A stretch of 33,959 bases of DNA from Candidatus Methanoperedens sp. (GCA_012026835.1 VEPN01000034.1:1-33959), one strand, 5' to 3'; shown: positions 1,643-31,580, counted from the first letter of the stretch. The notes: generated from the letters alone by a model not told the origin. Program-made: numbers and translations.

Positions 1643-2311
1643 TCATATATTTTCAATTGTTCCATCCCTGAAATGTAGAATCCTGTCCGCCATCCCGCCA
1701 ATCTCCGGGCTGTGAGTTACCATCACGATAGTCTGTTCCCGCTCCTGGTTAAGTTTCCTGAAAAGTTCAATGATCTCTATAGAGGATTTAGTATCCAGGT
1801 TGCCCGTAGGTTCATCAGCCAAAAGAATTTTCGGATTGTTGGCAAGACTTCTTGCAATGGTAACACGTTGCTGCTGCCCGCCGGATAATTCTGACGGCAG
1901 ATGATGCAGTCGGTCACCAAGACCAACAAGGTTGAGCAGTTCCTTAGACCGATCCTTATAATCAGACAGCTTGTTCAGCATCATAGGGAACATTACATTT
2001 TCCATGACCGTGAGCTCATTAAAAAGATTGAAGAACTGGAAAACAAAACCTATATATTTCAATCTATACTCTGCCCTCGTGTTGCTATTCATATTTGTTA
2101 CATCGTTACCCTCCAGGTATATTTCACCTGAAGTCGGGGTGTCAAGCATACCTGCCAAATTGAGAAAAGTTGATTTGCCGCAACCTGACGGGCCCATAAT
2201 GGCAACAAATTCACCCTGTTCTACAGAGGTATCCACGCCATTAAGCGCTTTAACCTCGACTTTTCCAAGCATATAGCTCTTTTTAAGATTGCTAGTTTTA
2301 ATTATTTCCAT
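1643..2311 (-). CDS. ABC transporter ATP-binding protein, LolD/MacB type
   Basis: A 222-residue ATPase that would power the two permeases encoded just upstream. All nucleotide-binding motifs are intact: Walker A GPSGCGKST (residues 40-48), Q-loop Q92, signature LSGGQQQR (142-149), Walker B ILLADEP with D166/E167, and the switch histidine in MVTHSPE. The closeness to LolD, MacB and FtsE and the partner type (FtsX-like permeases) indicate mechanotransmission-style export or extraction from the membrane, not solute import. It is the last gene of the minus-strand operon, one base downstream of the second permease. The transported substrate is unknown. Confidence 0.93.
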   Translation of the reverse strand: MEIIKTSNLKKSYMLGKVEVKALNGVDTSVEQGEFVAIMGPSGCGKSTFLNLAGMLDTPTSGEIYLEGNDVTNMNSNTRAEYRLKYIGFVFQFFNLFNELTVMENVMFPMMLNKLSDYKDRSKELLNLVGLGDRLHHLPSELSGGQQQRVTIARSLANNPKILLADEPTGNLDTKSSIEIIELFRKLNQEREQTIVMVTHSPEIGGMADRILHFRDGTIENI

Positions 2312-2312
2312 T

Positions 2313-3470
2313 TTAATTGCCCCATATTGCTTTTATTATGTTCGTTCTGCTTGCCATAAGTGCAGGAAATGCTGCTGCAAGGATTACAATGAGCATTGTT
2401 ACAAGCGAGGCATCATAGATTAGAAATAAATGAAATCTTGGACCTAAAGAACCAAGGGTTGGGTCAGGAAAAGGATGCGCTTCCAAATATTTAGTACCTG
2501 CATATCCCAGTGCATCTCCAATCAGGATACCTATTGCTCCGAGAAATACTGCCTGGAGAATATATACAAACAATACCTGTAAATCCTTCATTCCAATTGC
2601 TTTTAATATACCTATCTGCCTTCTTTTATGTAAAATATTTATATAAAGTACTATACCTACGGATACTGCTCCTGTAAATAATCCAATTGCATTCATAAAA
2701 TTACTGATTTCCCTGAATGTTTTAAATGAACTCAATACGGATTCAATCTCTTGCTTCCATTCTTTGATTTTTTGAATACCAAGTTCCTCGGATATTTTGT
2801 TTTTATATTGCCCTGAAAGAGTTTCATCTTGCAATTTGACAAGAATAATAGATGCCTTATTAAAAAGGTTAAGCTGTTCTGCTGCATCTTCAAAGTTTAT
2901 TATTATTGTGTTCGTATCCATTGCCAGCCCCGTGTGCAGTATACCTCTGATTTTAAAAACTCTGGGTTTGCCGTTTTCGAATACTATGGTGGCTTCATCG
3001 CCGGGTTTTACCTTTAAATCATCTGCCAGCCGGTATGACATCAACATTCCGTCCCGGTCATTAGTTGCAAGTGTTTCACCCGAGTCAACTTTACTTAACA
3101 GGATCGTAACTTCGTTTTCTTTTGAGGGGTCTAAGGCTAAAATTTTTATAGTTTTAAATTTTTCCTTATAATGTAAAGTTCCACCTGCCGTGATTCTTGG
3201 AGAATAAGCAACCACCCCATCCATGCCCTCAAGTTTTTTTTCCTTGATGCCCAGCCCTTCTATATATTTATCCTGCTCATCCGGATAGATGTTAACATGT
3301 CCTGAAGAAGTGTCCATGTTTTTTTCTAAAAAACCATCAGTTATGCCATCCATGAAACCATTCAGGATAATAATATTTGCAGTAGAAATGGCAATTGCTA
3401 TTATTACAAAAAAGAACGTTTTCCAATTTTTCTTTGCATCTTTTCTTGCATAGAAGAATATTGATGACAT
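2313..3470 (-). CDS. ABC transporter permease, FtsX/LolC/MacB type (second paralogue)
   Basis: A 385-residue permease with the FtsX-superfamily layout: one N-terminal transmembrane helix (about 19-39), a large extracytoplasmic domain (about 40-255), and three C-terminal helices at about 260-281, 302-325 and 348-373. The phrase KRRQIGILKAIG, just after helix 2, is the typical cytoplasmic coupling segment. It is clearly paralogous to the next permease upstream: both have SSGHxNIYPD, GIKE and AYSPRI in the periplasm-side domain and end in IKAIWG. The two probably form a heterodimer with the adjacent ATPase. The single-base gaps to both neighbours indicate one transcript. Confidence 0.9.
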   Translation of the reverse strand: MSSIFFYARKDAKKNWKTFFFVIIAIAISTANIIILNGFMDGITDGFLEKNMDTSSGHVNIYPDEQDKYIEGLGIKEKKLEGMDGVVAYSPRITAGGTLHYKEKFKTIKILALDPSKENEVTILLSKVDSGETLATNDRDGMLMSYRLADDLKVKPGDEATIVFENGKPRVFKIRGILHTGLAMDTNTIIINFEDAAEQLNLFNKASIILVKLQDETLSGQYKNKISEELGIQKIKEWKQEIESVLSSFKTFREISNFMNAIGLFTGAVSVGIVLYINILHKRRQIGILKAIGMKDLQVLFVYILQAVFLGAIGILIGDALGYAGTKYLEAHPFPDPTLGSLGPRFHLFLIYDASLVTMLIVILAAAFPALMASRTNIIKAIWGN

Positions 3471-3471
3471 C

Positions 3472-4647
3472 TTATGTACCCCATATCGCTTTGATAATTT
3501 CCACTCTGCTTGCTTTAATGGCGGGATATACTCCTGCCAGTATCGTTACTACAAAAGAGACAATTGTTACAATATAGAACAGCCGGGATTCGAACTTTGC
3601 ACTTATCCAGGTCTGCGATATGGCATCATAGAAAGGATTTGCTTCAAAGTACTTTATCGCGAGATATCCGAGAAAATCTCCGATAGAAACACCTATTACA
3701 CCAAAAATAGCAGCTTCCATCAAAAATACCGTGAAAATGAAGGCATTATTTGTTCCTATGGCTTTCATTATGCCAATTTGTCTTTTTTTATGAATTACAT
3801 TTATATATATTACAATCCCAACCGATATCGCTGCGGCGATTAAACCCACTCCAGATATTATACTTGAAATACTCCGCCATGAATTAGCGAAGTTTGATAT
3901 GAATTCTGTCTCTTCTTTCCATGTTTTTATATTATTTACATCCAGATTCTGCATAATTATTGGCCTGTACATTTCTGTCATGCTCTTATCTGAAAGCTTA
4001 ATCAGAATAACAGAAGCCATATTATCGATAGCAAGCTGCCTGTAGGCTTCATTAATGGGCATAATAATTGTGGAGCTGTCGAAATCCAGGTTACCGGTGC
4101 GAACAATTCCTTTAACAGTATATACTTTAATTATTCCATTTTCAAACGCCAGCGTGGCTTCATCTCCGACGTCCAGTTTTAAATCTTCAGCAAGGCGGGA
4201 GGAGACAAGAATGGCATTCTTATCATTAGAATTTACAGCAACACCCCGGATAAGTTTTTCAAGAAGTTTTGTTGTCTTTCGTTCTTTATCGGGATCCAGA
4301 GCCAGTATTGTATTGGATACTGATAGCTCTTTATTAGATAAAACACCGGTTGCCGAGATCCTTGGTGAATATGCTTCCACTTCCTTTAATGCAGCCAGTC
4401 TCTGCTCCTTTATCCCGATACCTTCTATAAACCGTTCATTATTATCAGGGTAAATATTTAAATGACCCACCGAAGATTCAACAGTGTTATCGACTAAATC
4501 TTCGATCATTCCATTAATAAGCCCATTGATAACAATGATATTTGCAGTCGCTAAAATAATCGATAAGGTTATAATTATGAAGATCTTTCTGTTTTTGAAG
4601 ATGTCTTTTCCTGAATAGAAAAGAGCGCAGCGTAAATCAACAGGCAC
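3472..4647 (-). CDS. ABC transporter permease, FtsX/LolC/MacB type (first paralogue)
   Basis: A 391-residue FtsX-family permease, paralogue of its downstream neighbour. It has an N-terminal helix near residues 22-42, a large outside domain containing SSVGHLNIYPD, and three C-terminal helices with KKRQIGIMKAIG between the first two. Its start codon shares one base with the end of the PGF-CTERM gene, so the two are probably translationally coupled. In the MacB/LolCDE family the outside domain transmits ATPase motion to an outside partner. The surface protein encoded immediately upstream is the obvious candidate partner, by inference. Confidence 0.9.
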   Translation of the reverse strand: MPVDLRCALFYSGKDIFKNRKIFIIITLSIILATANIIVINGLINGMIEDLVDNTVESSVGHLNIYPDNNERFIEGIGIKEQRLAALKEVEAYSPRISATGVLSNKELSVSNTILALDPDKERKTTKLLEKLIRGVAVNSNDKNAILVSSRLAEDLKLDVGDEATLAFENGIIKVYTVKGIVRTGNLDFDSSTIIMPINEAYRQLAIDNMASVILIKLSDKSMTEMYRPIIMQNLDVNNIKTWKEETEFISNFANSWRSISSIISGVGLIAAAISVGIVIYINVIHKKRQIGIMKAIGTNNAFIFTVFLMEAAIFGVIGVSIGDFLGYLAIKYFEANPFYDAISQTWISAKFESRLFYIVTIVSFVVTILAGVYPAIKASRVEIIKAIWGT

Positions 4648-5558
4648 TACTTGGCCCTCCGTTTATATATTAAAACAAGAGCGAATATTGCAAGAACCGG
4701 TATTATCAGGGTAAATCCCGGAGTGCTTAAACTATCTCCTGGATTTCCCGATTGGTTTGCAGGTTCGGCGGTCTTTGCACTTGCTCTTCTGTCAACAGTA
4801 AAAATCTTATCATAGTTGACGGCGAGATTTTTTCCATTTAATAATACTGAGACAATGTATGTGCCTTCATCCAGATTATCTGTCCACAGGATGTTTTCGG
4901 TTTTCTCCTTGTCATTTGACATGATAGACGGGGCGGCTATCTCCCTTGTTTCCATTACCCTGCCGTCCTGCTTCAGAGTAAAAATAATTTTAGCATCCAG
5001 GGGGACCATAGATACACTTTTTATGGTAGCACTTGCGCCTATGCCGTCCCCGTACACTTCGGTTATTTCAGCATCGTTCCTGGCCGTGAAATTCGAGCTT
5101 GTAGTGAGGTAATATTCGGGGTTTCCATCCCTGTACAGATACACATTTGCTATTCCAGTGTAGTTCTTACCCTCATCCAGGGCTACATTTCCCTGATGAT
5201 CAAGGATAATATTTCCCTCATTCCCTATTGATAATGGGATTTGTTCAACCCTTTTGGAATAAACAACCTGCTCCTGCACCATCAGAATATATTCTATATC
5301 AGCAAGGAACGGCTTGAAACTGGTCTCTGCGTGCCTCTCATAAGTTCTTAGGATCAACTTGAAACCGTTGGAATTCACGCCGAACCCGTCTATGTAGATT
5401 TTTGAAAATGCTGACCCGCTATCCTCGTTAAAAAAATTCCCTTTTTCAATGGGATTGCCTGTTGAAGCGCCCGCGGCAGAGGATATCAATATAATCAGGG
5501 CAAGGATTGTCACGATATGTTTAAGCATACGGTTTTTAAGCATACAGTGTTTAAGCAT
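4647..5558 (-). CDS. Secreted PGF-CTERM surface protein, probable archaeosortase substrate
   Basis: A 303-residue exported protein. A hydrophobic signal segment follows at residues 14-31, then a mostly beta-type extracellular region with Ig-like character and several N-glycosylation sequons, a Ser/Pro/Asn-rich linker, and a C-terminal PGF-CTERM signal. The PGF triplet is at 280-282, followed by a hydrophobic helix and the basic tail YKRR. In archaea this signal is cleaved by archaeosortase A and the protein is lipid-linked to the membrane. The start is unusual: three near-identical 15-base units each supply an in-frame ATG (5558, 5543 and 5528). The first overlaps the ArsA-like stop by 8 bases. 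I do not recognise the ectodomain; its place between the ATPase and the permeases suggests it is the outside component of the transport system. Confidence 0.8.
   Translation of the reverse strand: MLKHCMLKNRMLKHIVTILALIILISSAAGASTGNPIEKGNFFNEDSGSAFSKIYIDGFGVNSNGFKLILRTYERHAETSFKPFLADIEYILMVQEQVVYSKRVEQIPLSIGNEGNIILDHQGNVALDEGKNYTGIANVYLYRDGNPEYYLTTSSNFTARNDAEITEVYGDGIGASATIKSVSMVPLDAKIIFTLKQDGRVMETREIAAPSIMSNDKEKTENILWTDNLDEGTYIVSVLLNGKNLAVNYDKIFTVDRRASAKTAEPANQSGNPGDSLSTPGFTLIIPVLAIFALVLIYKRRAK
5514..5558 (-). repeat. Triplicated 15-bp unit carrying alternative start codons
   Basis: Read on the minus strand, the unit ATGCTTAAACACTGT is followed by ATGCTTAAAAACCGT and ATGCTTAAACATATC, giving the peptide pattern MLKHC-MLKNR-MLKHI. 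The first copy overlaps the end of the ArsA-like gene (stop TAA at 5551-5553). The repeat is therefore a duplication of the translational-coupling junction itself. Because the unit is a multiple of three, copy-number change would keep the frame and only alter the N-terminus and the number of starts. Confidence 0.8.
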
Positions 5559-6468
5559 ACAGCATCTCGCCTACCTGTCGTAATGTCGATATATCCGAAA
5601 CATCCCTGTCCAGGAGCGGCAGGCGCGACCTTTTCAGGTCACTAAAGCGCGTCTCTATCTCTTCCATGTACCGTGCCTGCAATTTCGCTCTTGCAGCCAG
5701 GAAGCGGTTGCCTTCTATGACCTCAGGAAGGATACACTGATTCACCACAAGCGCCTGAACCGGGATGCCCAGCCGGTCCAGCCCCGTAATTGCACTCTGT
5801 GTCTCCTCGATAGGCAAACGTTCAGGCAGCAATACTAAAGTGAAAACAGCGGTAGGGCGATTCCCCAGTATACTCAAAGCTTCTTCATAGCGCCGCTTAT
5901 CCCGTTCCAGGTCTTCAAAAGAATTGCTGCCCATATTCATCATCTGGGCCAGCTTCTTGCCTTCCTGAATCTGCTTCTGCAGGAACCCTGCCCAATTAAA
6001 CGGCATGGCAAGTTCCCTCAAGGTCTTGCCTGTAGGGGCTGTATCGAAAACTATGACATCGCTGTCCGGCTCCTCAAGAAAGGTTACGAACTGATCGAAG
6101 GTTGCCATTTCTTCCATGCAGGGGGTACTGACAACATCGCTGCCAAAGGTGCCTGCCATCTGTCCTATAACAGAATTAAGGCGCCCCAGGAATACTCCTT
6201 TTGCATCATTCGGGTTGATGTTGAGCCCGCACAGGTTTGATACATGGCGTATTGGTACTCTGGCATCACCCTTTATCTCCTGACCGAACATGGCTGAGAG
6301 GCTTACTGTGGGATCGGTTGAAACAATCGTTGTTTTGTAGCCATGATCGGCAAACCACACAGCAGTAGCCGTGGCGACCGTAGTTTTTCCCACACCTCCT
6401 TTGCCACCGAAGAACAGGTATTTGGTTGCTCCTTCGGGTACCATGAGGTGCTTGATATCTTCATTCAT
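5551..6468 (-). CDS. ArsA/GET3-family P-loop ATPase
   Basis: A 305-residue single-domain member of the ArsA/TRC40 (GET3) ATPase family, so it would act as a homodimer. It shows the deviant Walker A motif GGKGGVGKTT (21-30), the switch region STDPTVSLS (50-58) and the A-loop/signature DTAPTGKTLREL (142-153). C117, in STPCMEEMATFDQF, aligns with Cys113 of E. coli ArsA, a metalloid ligand. The position of ArsA His148 is a Lys here, and no cysteine is seen at the ArsA Cys172 region. The start overlaps the ArsD-like gene by 8 bases. Pairing with an ArsD-like protein argues for thiol or metal(loid) chemistry, while tail-anchored protein targeting remains an alternative. It is not CooC-like in context. 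Confidence 0.85.
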   Translation of the reverse strand: MNEDIKHLMVPEGATKYLFFGGKGGVGKTTVATATAVWFADHGYKTTIVSTDPTVSLSAMFGQEIKGDARVPIRHVSNLCGLNINPNDAKGVFLGRLNSVIGQMAGTFGSDVVSTPCMEEMATFDQFVTFLEEPDSDVIVFDTAPTGKTLRELAMPFNWAGFLQKQIQEGKKLAQMMNMGSNSFEDLERDKRRYEEALSILGNRPTAVFTLVLLPERLPIEETQSAITGLDRLGIPVQALVVNQCILPEVIEGNRFLAARAKLQARYMEEIETRFSDLKRSRLPLLDRDVSDISTLRQVGEMLYA

Positions 6469-6823
6469 CTTGCATCCCCCTTATTTTTCCTGCGTCCATT
6501 GCCTGAAGAAGCGCTGTCTTTACGTCCTCGACCTTCGGCACTCCATAAGAGATGATCTTACCATTGATAAGAACAGCAGGGACCGGCATCCTGCCTGACT
6601 GGTTTAACTCGGTTATTATTTTTGTCATTACTTCTTTGGGAACAGCACCAAAGTAGGCGGTGCTGGCAGGGATTACTTTTACCTGTGCTTTTACATCCGT
6701 TTCCGAGAGTGCCTGTTCCACTACATGCTTGGCCTGTTCATCAAAAGGAGCCATTCCGGGGATGCAGCAGCTTCCACTGATAATTATAATTCCCGGTTCG
6801 GATTTCTTTATTATTTTATTCAT
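6461..6823 (-). CDS. ArsD-like thioredoxin-fold protein with vicinal cysteines
   Basis: A 120-residue small soluble protein with a thioredoxin-type fold: beta strand GIIIISGS, the pair C19-C20 at the start of the first helix, and a VPAVLINGK strand with the expected cis-proline at P82. A vicinal Cys-Cys in this position is the hallmark of ArsD, the metallochaperone that hands As(III) to ArsA. The third ArsD cysteine (Cys18 in the R773 protein) is not present nearby. It is the first gene of the operon and overlaps the ArsA-like ATPase gene, so a donor-ATPase pair is likely. A generic redox or thiol-transfer role is the main alternative. Confidence 0.7.
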   Translation of the reverse strand: MNKIIKKSEPGIIIISGSCCIPGMAPFDEQAKHVVEQALSETDVKAQVKVIPASTAYFGAVPKEVMTKIITELNQSGRMPVPAVLINGKIISYGVPKVEDVKTALLQAMDAGKIRGMQDE

Positions 6824-6913
6824 GGTATTTGATAAAACGCAGCCAGAAAGGATAGAATTTTACCCATACATATAGGGTTATATTTATATGGTTACGATAC
6901 AAATAAGGTATTT
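6824..6913. promoter_or_regulatory. Divergent promoter with palindromic operator candidate
   Basis: This 90-base gap must hold the promoters of both the six-gene minus-strand operon and the plus-strand regulator. An imperfect palindrome spans 6864-6891, with outer arms CCATA (6864-6868) and TATGG (6887-6891) and A/T-rich inner arms around a GGGT centre. Its right half doubles as the TATA box of the regulator gene, about 25 bases before its ATG, which fits a leaderless transcript. A protein bound here could control both directions. The divergent HTH protein is the natural candidate. Confidence 0.5.
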
Positions 6914-7549
6914 ATGAGAAAAATGACTGTGCGGGCCACTGGCAATGTCCCGCACTGCTGCATTCCTTTTGCCGGCCTGGTCGAACGGCTTGAGGTCATT
7001 TCGATTTTCAATTTTACACCTGCGGCACATAGCGAAGTTTGCAACATCACACTCGCGGACGGGATAAGTCTTGAAGGGATTAAAAGCGATTTTATCACTG
7101 ATATAATTGTCTTAAGAAATGAAGGCAGGGATTATACCTGCCTATTAAAAGGAAAGTTTTCTGATGAGATCTCAAGGTTCATAGGCAAATTCGATCTTAA
7201 ACTTGAATATCCTCTGATTTTTGAAGGGGATACATGCCAGTTCAGTATGGTCGGTTCATCTGATGAATTGTATAATATCATAACCGCTGCAAAGGAAAAC
7301 GGGTGGGGATTTGAAGTATTGTCAGTGCAGAAGTACGACCCGCATGTCAGCAGCGTGTTTCGCGCGCTCACGGGAAAGCAAAAAGAAATACTTCTGCAAG
7401 CGTACAGGAGCGGCTATTTCGATCATCCAAGGAAAATCAATGCTGGCGAGCTTGCCGGGAAAATTGGAATGCATAAGACGACATTGCTTGAGCATCTGCA
7501 TAAAGCAGAGAAGCGGCTTATCGGGCATATAATTGAACTGACGAGTTAA
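6914..7549 (+). CDS. Bat-type (bacterio-opsin activator) HTH transcriptional regulator
   Basis: A 211-residue archaeal regulator. The C-terminal part (about 150-206) matches the HTH_10 domain: LTGKQKEILLQAY, a GYFDHPRK turn, then GELAGKIGMHKTTLLEHLHKAEKRL, the recognition region (split here as two runs: GELAGKIGMHK and TTLLEHLHKAEKRL). The N-terminal sensor region contains a vicinal cysteine pair, C15-C16, in HCCIPFAG, and three further cysteines. It is transcribed away from the ArsD/ArsA-like operon and the two share a 90-base promoter region, so it is probably the local regulator. The vicinal cysteines suggest sensing of a thiophilic metal(loid) or of redox state; this is inference. Confidence 0.8.
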   Translation: MRKMTVRATGNVPHCCIPFAGLVERLEVISIFNFTPAAHSEVCNITLADGISLEGIKSDFITDIIVLRNEGRDYTCLLKGKFSDEISRFIGKFDLKLEYPLIFEGDTCQFSMVGSSDELYNIITAAKENGWGFEVLSVQKYDPHVSSVFRALTGKQKEILLQAYRSGYFDHPRKINAGELAGKIGMHKTTLLEHLHKAEKRLIGHIIELTS

Positions 7550-30149: not shown

Positions 30150-31580
30150 ATGGGACATCCTGACTGGGTAATGAAACACAAGACAAAAGGAACAGAAATA
30201 AGAAAACTTGGAAAATATTATTATCTCTACAAAATCAGAAGCGAATATGATAAAGAAAAAAAACGAGCAAAAAAAATCACAGAAAAATTCCTTGGTAAAA
30301 TAACAGAAGAAGGACTCATAAAACCAAAGCATGAAAGAATAATAGAATCAAGGAAAAACATAAGTGTAAAAGAGTTCGGTGCATCACAATTCATAACCAG
30401 AGAATCAAAGGACATCATCCAGAACCTGAAAGAAGTTTTCCCTGATACCTGGAAAGAGATATTCACATTCGCAGTATTTCGATTTTTCTCATCATCTCCA
30501 TTAAAGAATGTCCAAAATCACTACCAGAGTTCTTACTTATCTGATATCATACCAGATGCGAAAGTATCCCCCAGGTCGCTGGGCAACATGCTTCATACAA
30601 TGGGGCAGCAACGAGATCTTATCAAGAAATTCCTTTCAAAATACATAGCCCGGGAGGAATGTATGGCGGTTGATCTCACACATGTATTCTCTCTTTCAGA
30701 AAATGTTATATCAGCTACTTTAGGCCGAAATTCAGAAAAAAATTACCTCCCACAAATAAATCTTTTTTTGCTTTTTTCACTTGATAGAATGCAACCGATC
30801 TTTTATAGACTTGTTCCCGGTTCGATAAGGGATGTTTCCAGTTTGCTTTTATCCATGGAAGAATCGAAAGTAAAAAATATTATTCTGGTGGGGGACAAAG
30901 GGTTCTATTCCGCTGATAATGCAAAAGAACTTGAGACTAATAAGATCAGGTATATTTTACCGCTTAAAAGAAATAGCCAATTGATCGATTATTCACCTCT
31001 AATGCAGGCAGGAAGGAAGCAGTTTGATGGTCATTTTCTTTTTGAGAACCGGGTGATCTGGCACTATGGACGTGTAATTGATGGGAAAAGGATAGTTACA
31101 TTCCTGGATAACTTCTTGAAAGTGGAAGAGGAACGCGATTTCTTAATTAGAGTGAATGAGGGAAAGCTCAAGATAGGGGAGTTTTATGAAACTGATAGTA
31201 AGTTTGGAACAATATCTATTATTACGGGAGTAGATTTGTCTCCACAGAGGATTTTTGAGCTGCTGAAAAGTCGTGTTGAGATCGAGGTTACTTTTGACAC
31301 GTTCAAAAATGTGTTGAATGCAGATCGCAGTTATATGAGGGATGATTCTTCCATGGAAGGGTGGATGTTTGTGAATTTTATTGCTCTGCTTTTTTATTAT
31401 AAGGTCTATGGATTGCTATTTTCCAGGGATATTTTGAGTAGATGTTCACCAAAAGATGCTATTCTACATCTGTCAAGAGTGTTTAATGTTAAAATAGGGG
31501 ATAACCGGGTGATCCCTGAGATTCCGAAAAAAACTCGTTTACTTATTGAAAAATTGAACATTGATTTGAGTATTACGTAA
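30150..31580 (+). CDS. IS4-superfamily DDE transposase (IS1634-like)
   Basis: A 476-residue transposase that appears intact. The N-terminal segment (about residues 20-50) reads KLGKYYYLYKIRSEYDKEKK, typical of IS1634-type proteins. The DDE residues are D175 (MAVDLTHVF), D249 (VGDKGFYSADNA) and E379, the last embedded in R375-(3)-E379-(6)-K386, the IS4 Y-(2)-R-(3)-E-(6)-K signature with Leu in place of Tyr. Target-site duplications and terminal inverted repeats could not be resolved by eye. The palindromic ATTACGTA sites bracket the gene. The AT-rich composition and lysine-rich N-terminus differ from neighbours and suggest recent arrival. Confidence 0.9.
   Translation: MGHPDWVMKHKTKGTEIRKLGKYYYLYKIRSEYDKEKKRAKKITEKFLGKITEEGLIKPKHERIIESRKNISVKEFGASQFITRESKDIIQNLKEVFPDTWKEIFTFAVFRFFSSSPLKNVQNHYQSSYLSDIIPDAKVSPRSLGNMLHTMGQQRDLIKKFLSKYIAREECMAVDLTHVFSLSENVISATLGRNSEKNYLPQINLFLLFSLDRMQPIFYRLVPGSIRDVSSLLLSMEESKVKNIILVGDKGFYSADNAKELETNKIRYILPLKRNSQLIDYSPLMQAGRKQFDGHFLFENRVIWHYGRVIDGKRIVTFLDNFLKVEEERDFLIRVNEGKLKIGEFYETDSKFGTISIITGVDLSPQRIFELLKSRVEIEVTFDTFKNVLNADRSYMRDDSSMEGWMFVNFIALLFYYKVYGLLFSRDILSRCSPKDAILHLSRVFNVKIGDNRVIPEIPKKTRLLIEKLNIDLSIT

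Follow-up and report, generated by a model that had tools for sequence, protein, structure and literature searches.

We conclude that a six-gene operon of Candidatus Methanoperedens consists of two independent modules, namely a CC/ArsA pair and a LolCDE-like exporter cassette of four genes, one of which encodes a sorted surface protein. In our preferred reading, to which we assign a probability of roughly 55%, this is a thiophile-responsive operon, most likely responding to trivalent arsenic or antimony, which has recruited an envelope exporter. The joining of an arsenic-type module and its cysteine-rich switch to such an exporter suggests a new coupling of metalloid stress to the cell envelope. 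The initial annotation had regarded this combination as undescribed, and our search of the open-access literature likewise found no account of it.

Organization of the operon

The window, i.e. the whole analysed stretch of 33,959 nucleotides, belongs to a metagenome-assembled genome of 3.3 Mb and 99.8% completeness (G000), placed in the genus Ca. Methanoperedens on account of named relatives in which the same loci occur. The initial annotation comprised six closely spaced genes on the minus strand and a divergent Bat-type regulator, and every one of these genes was recovered, together with a predicted operator:

6914-7549, plus strand, divergent: HTH_10 (Bat-type) regulator, 211 aa (PF04967)
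6861-6882, between regulator and operon: predicted palindromic operator TACCCATACATATAGGGTTATA, a conserved palindrome
6461-6823, minus strand: CC protein ('ArsD-like'), 120 aa, thioredoxin fold, C19-C20 (codons 6764-6769)
5551-6468, minus strand: single-domain ArsA ATPase, 305 aa (ArsA_ATPase PF02374, E 6.8e-66; Walker A GGKGGVGKTT)
4647-5558, minus strand: surface protein with signal peptide, two beta-sandwich domains and PGF-CTERM-like sorting tail
3472-4647, minus strand: FtsX1, LolC/E-like type VII ABC permease (Pfam/NCBIfam)
2313-3470, minus strand: FtsX2, LolC/E-like permease with MacB_PCD (Pfam/NCBIfam)
1643-2311, minus strand: LolD-like ABC ATPase (ABC_tran/LolD-type)

The assignment of ArsA, the two FtsX-type permeases, the LolD-like ATPase and the regulator to their families was backed by Pfam and NCBIfam matches. 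Counted from the CC gene, the first three junctions are overlaps of 8, 8 and 1 bp, followed by two 1-bp gaps. Since relatives of the surface protein begin at 'ML/MFKxI', its true start is perhaps located 30 nt later (~5528, third Met), and the ArsA/surface-protein junction would therefore be a gap of ~22 nt and not an overlap. A short tandem repeat, MLKHCMLKNRMLKH, is found at the N-terminus of the surface protein (window positions 5528-5558) and is missing in most relatives. Rfam and tRNA scans gave no matches. Elsewhere on the same contig, a low-GC stretch contains a transposase-like ORF of 476 aa (window positions 30150-31580).

CC protein and ArsA ATPase

The vicinal cysteines C19-C20 are invariant in all 31 members of the CC protein family, and virtually every intact ArsA locus, whatever the phylum, has an adjoining gene for a small protein with an N-terminal-proximal Cys-Cys. 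The earlier designation 'ArsD-like' is appropriate by analogy, given the thioredoxin fold and the Cys-Cys pair, but not by family, as none of the 31 members matched the Pfam ArsD model (PF06953). Thioredoxin_3 matched 30 of the 31; the window protein itself gave a weak, below-cut-off match to Thioredoxin_3, and no ArsD model matched it. Its predicted structure contains a confident thioredoxin-like domain (pLDDT 84.5) in which a strand at residues 11-16 precedes the vicinal cysteines, and a fold search with this model matched thioredoxins and glutaredoxins weakly, none at E <0.001. The third ArsD cysteine (Cys18 of R773 ArsD) is present in canonical ArsD rows and absent from both types of Methanoperedens locus described below (types I and II). 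ArsD membership had been considered on the basis of an early match to solved ArsD structures and was rejected: the profile used included canonical ArsD rows, and the match was lost once these were left out.

Cys113, Cys172 and Cys422 have been described as metalloid ligands of ArsA (PMC2440759). Residue C117 of the window ArsA (codon 6118-6120) is equivalent to Cys113/Cys422, the canonical metalloid cysteine; its column holds a cysteine in 36 of 38 aligned rows, including both halves of canonical ArsA, and the cysteine is missing in two other ArsA-family paralogues. A further cysteine, C80, occurs in this clade only (32/38 rows), and the new clade has no conserved cysteine column at the place of Cys172. 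With one domain only, the window protein scored 169 bits against the tandem two-domain pump model TIGR04291 (cut-off 650). ArsA may act as a homodimer of single-domain chains, in which the C117/C117' pair would mimic the Cys113-Cys422 site of tandem ArsA. A plasmid search returned canonical ArsA only, with at most ~36% identity among the matches listed. Acr3 genes are found elsewhere in G000 and already provide for ordinary efflux of As(III). The same genome also contains a canonical arsD broken by stops (G000:C31:68874-69224, L100), ~1.6 kb from an intact acr3.

It is highly improbable that this ArsA instead chaperones membrane proteins in the manner of Get3/TRC40, feeding the exporter or the surface protein. 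The window protein does score above the cut-off of TIGR00345 (GET3_arsA_TRC40), and archaeal Get3-type ATPases are among its best PDB matches. However, the Get3 CxxC zinc motif is absent, with GNRFLAARAK standing where the Cys-bearing segment would be, C117 is retained and the CC protein is an obligatory partner, while the surface protein carries an N-terminal signal and does not qualify as a tail-anchored cytosolic client.

Regulator and operator

The regulator contains an HTH_10 domain (PF04967; 65.2 bits, cut-off 23.1, E 4.7e-18), and has five invariant cysteines (C15-C16, C43, C76 and C108); no other HTH_10 protein was found in G000. All divergent intergenic regions examined, of types I and II alike, have kept a palindrome, which reads TACCCATACATGTAGGGTTATA in relatives and from which the 22-bp window copy differs by one mismatch. 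This predicted operator is unique in the genome at ≤3 mismatches. Across 60 genomes the pattern occurs at 14 places (15 matches listed, two of them overlapping), 13 of which are at these loci and one away from them, in G028; a reversed control pattern gave no sites in the same 60 genomes. At L015 the operator is kept though the regulator gene ends after ~14 codons, and an intact copy is present at L011 in the same genome.

Type II operons are bordered downstream by a second, convergent HTH_10 regulator, 49-61% identical. It is complete and contains a CC pair at L017:773-1408, and is partial at L020:10946-11311 and L021:2454-2561.

In other taxa, MarR, ArsR or AbrB regulators of unrelated folds adjoin the CC/ArsA pair. 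Vicinal cysteines occur in these pair-adjacent regulators at six of the nine listed MarR loci, in one ArsR and in two AbrB proteins, against a background of 7.5% of size-matched ORFs. The ligand sensed by pair-adjacent regulators is probably a metalloid.

A broader response to thiol or redox stress (Cu(I), Hg(II), sulfide or nitrosative) and not to arsenic or antimony, with the CC protein as an atypical thioredoxin and ArsA as a redox-gated ATPase, is unlikely. Such a response would suit the thioredoxin fold of the CC protein and the one locus (L045) at which an HgcC-family AbrB regulator accompanies the module, but the metalloid cysteine of ArsA is in register, arsM is preceded by a member of the same AbrB family in most of the Methanoperedens genomes examined, and full-length HgcA is lacking in most of the tested genomes that carry the module. 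Because of these last two observations, mercury methylation was also rejected as a general theme; full-length HgcA is missing in G000 as well.

In most of these Methanoperedens genomes the AbrB-type proteins concerned (NF040962, 'HgcC / HgcAB-associated'; L065-L079, L099) are located directly upstream of arsM, and the family name 'HgcC' is therefore too narrow. One member lies upstream of hgcAB (L077), and members or look-alikes adjoin the CC/ArsA pair at L045:8610-8912 and L040:2009-2266.

Exporter and surface protein

The downstream genes have the features of type VII ABC systems (MacB/FtsX/LolE fold), namely FtsX permeases, a MacB-like extracytoplasmic domain and a LolD-like ATPase. The FtsX domain was recognized on both permeases (E 2.8e-17 and 3.4e-16), and MacB_PCD on FtsX2 only. 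Neither the LolD equivalog (243 vs 307.75 bits) nor, for the permeases, the lolCE equivalog (99 and 97 vs 362 bits) was reached.

The surface protein had initially been annotated as a PGF-CTERM protein. A PGF motif is visible in its tail, along with a hydrophobic helix and a basic terminus, and three G000 proteins score over the cut-off of archaeosortase A (TIGR04125), but the PGF_CTERM model TIGR04126 matches one of 21 relatives, compared with nine of 21 for Heimdall-CTERM, and the window protein's own tail just reaches the Heimdall-CTERM threshold (24.2, with a cut-off of 24). A fold search with the surface protein gave generic Ig/FN3-like beta-sandwich matches only.

The mature surface protein is cysteine-free. 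Conserved cysteines that could serve as metal ligands were sought in the permeases and the surface protein and none were found, which ruled out such ligands and makes a direct As(III) channel unlikely. Few residues separate ArsA-linked from unlinked exporters. Of the thiophilic or lipid-linked substrate suggested in the initial annotation, a thiophilic one is supported for the CC/ArsA/regulator part, because cysteines are conserved there, but not for the exporter and surface protein. YbbAP-TesA has been proposed to pull hydrophobic molecules out of the membrane (PMC12646458). By analogy, the exporter studied here would better fit the extraction of a membrane-associated compound, or the handling of sorted surface proteins.

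Distribution and exchange of the modules

Among 60 related genomes, close homologues of the CC protein were found in the genus Ca. Methanoperedens only. Type I comprises eight loci (ArsA 84-93% identical, broken copies allowed for), three of which have the exporter directly downstream: the window, L014, where the exporter has one permease only, and L015. At the remaining five (L010-L013 and the remnant L022), a SAM methyltransferase takes the place of the exporter. In the six type II loci, ArsA is ~51% identical and the CC gene is placed after ArsA. Each of the six is followed by genes for the surface protein, permease(s) and ATPase, with a radical-SAM/B12-type gene inserted at L017 and a more distant, single-permease exporter at L020. 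Exporter and CC/ArsA are joined at nine of the 14 Methanoperedens ArsA loci, a recurrence that exceeds chance. The surface-protein/FtsX/LolD cassette also occurs without ArsA, at 15 Methanoperedens loci including a second copy in G000 (L084).

A scan of ~85,000 species genomes for the CC/ArsA pair yielded 37 loci, in Methanoperedens, Chloroflexota, Porphyromonadaceae (Bacteroidota), Ruminiclostridium (Bacillota), Methanomassiliicoccales and others, and at none of these loci outside Methanoperedens was a full exporter found behind the pair. At one of them (L045), a related surface-type protein lies behind the pair and the locus stops there. In Methanoperedens and in several bacteria, the gene behind the pair encodes an ArsM/UbiE-related methyltransferase; we use only this name because just one ArsM cysteine is in register, the others being shifted or missing, and its identification as a bona fide ArsM was rejected.

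Several neighbouring genes recur. A squalene-cyclase-like secreted protein flanks the type II loci L017, L018, L019, L020 and L047, and an aquaporin (MIP) flanks four of these five. Some exporter cassettes that stand alone likewise have cyclase-like neighbours (L089, L090 and L098). A ClpP-like SDH-type serine protease, with an N-terminal CxxC-bearing segment resembling a TRASH domain, often follows stand-alone cassettes (L085, L086, L087, L094, L096 and L097).

A fixed single system is contradicted by the 15 exporter cassettes without ArsA, by the five of eight type I loci in which the pair is unlinked to the exporter, and by the bacterial and Methanomassiliicoccales pairs examined, all of which lack it; an unlinked pair in close relatives is what the initial annotation had named as refuting the single-system reading. 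Coupling is nevertheless favoured by the phylogeny of the exporters. Trees were built for FtsX1, for the ATPase and for both joined. The ArsA-linked exporters form one clade, supported at 99/96 in the joined tree (L020 excluded) and less clear in the ATPase-only tree. This clade intermixes type I and type II loci, and a forced grouping of type I exporters, i.e. a single origin, was rejected (p-AU 1.8e-5). In the ArsA tree, types I and II are separate, with type I among Chloroflexota and other bacterial sequences. The single-permease exporter at L020 was joined to the pair separately. The partners have thus changed between lineages under a constant overall arrangement, and this favours a functional link; alternatively, recombination anchored in the exporter would account for the exchange.

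That account leads to a reading in which the CC/ArsA module handles metalloids and the exporter is a passenger, merely co-transcribed, with an envelope function of its own and placed by homologous recombination between cassettes. We regard this as a genuine possibility, though not a probable one. An intermixed exporter clade is what recombination would give, and the cassette is common without ArsA, as is the pair without the exporter. GC content differs between the exporter half (0.367 at window positions 2001-4000) and the CC/ArsA half (0.471 at 5001-7000), in line with a mosaic operon. The ClpP-like SDH protease, cyclase-like and prenyltransferase-like proteins adjoining stand-alone cassettes also hint at envelope or lipid work. 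Against a passenger role are the well supported single clade of ArsA-linked exporters, the exporter directly behind in all six type II loci, the separate joining at L020, and junctions that overlap or nearly do so.

Proposed function

Under the preferred reading of a metalloid-responsive operon, the HTH_10 regulator would sense the metalloid by its vicinal and other conserved cysteines and control the divergent promoter via the single operator. The CC protein, with its thioredoxin fold, would bind the metalloid in the cytosol and pass it to the putative ArsA dimer. In many loci the methyltransferase comes directly after the pair; here and in other Methanoperedens this place is taken by the four genes of the LolCDE-like mechanotransmission exporter and its surface protein, which would have been recruited as an envelope arm. 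The likeliest task of this arm is the extrusion or turnover of a membrane-associated, metalloid-modified or lipid-linked compound, or of a surface protein; that it conducts free As(III) as a channel is unlikely. Against the preferred reading count the loci at which pair and exporter occur apart, the absence of counterparts to Cys172 of ArsA and to the third ArsD cysteine, the lack of conserved cysteines in exporter and surface protein, and the Acr3 genes of G000. It is rather doubtful that the operon constitutes a categorically new metalloid disposal route, with a cytosolic CC-chaperone/ArsA relay that passes its cargo on to a mechanotransmission ABC exporter, whose partner is anchored by archaeosortase, in place of ArsB/Acr3 as the membrane step; the cargo would be the thiophile itself or a thiophile-modified lipid or surface molecule.

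Arsenate-dependent methane oxidation is under discussion for anaerobic methanotrophs. If our reading is correct, metalloid sensing in these organisms is tied to a Lol/Mac-type envelope machine, and ArsA-type ATPases have a role beyond ArsB/Acr3 pumps and Get3 targeting, within a small and mobile CC/ArsA module common to archaea and bacteria. The coupling lends itself to testing, since the operator is unique, there is a single HTH_10 regulator and the lineages have exchanged partners.

Comparison with known systems

The arrangement of arsM with AbrB-CC ('HgcC', NF040962), found in the same genus, likewise places a cysteine-pair regulator beside a metalloid methyltransferase, but its regulator has another fold and it has no ArsA; the exceptions are L040 and L045, at which AbrB-CC adjoins the ArsA pair. 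Archaeal ATPases of the Get3/TRC40/ArsA family share the fold, the P-loop and the best solved-structure matches with the window ArsA, which differs in its lack of CxxC, its metalloid cysteine and its pairing with the CC protein. With the type VII ABC systems LolCDE, MacB and YbbAP, the exporter has in common a LolD-like ATPase, FtsX-type permeases and an extracytoplasmic partner; here, however, the system is archaeal and ArsA-linked, its partner is a sorted beta-sandwich protein, and its components score below the NCBIfam equivalog cut-offs. The arsRDA(B) and acr3-arsD-arsA operons (plasmid R773 type), of which examples also occur in Methanoperedens (L024, L025), resemble the present operon in their Cys-Cys chaperone-like gene beside an ArsA with the metalloid cysteine, and in their cysteine-bearing regulator. 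In contrast to them, the operon described here combines a single-domain ArsA with a CC protein outside Pfam ArsD and an HTH_10 regulator, and in place of ArsB or Acr3 it continues into an ABC exporter and a surface protein.
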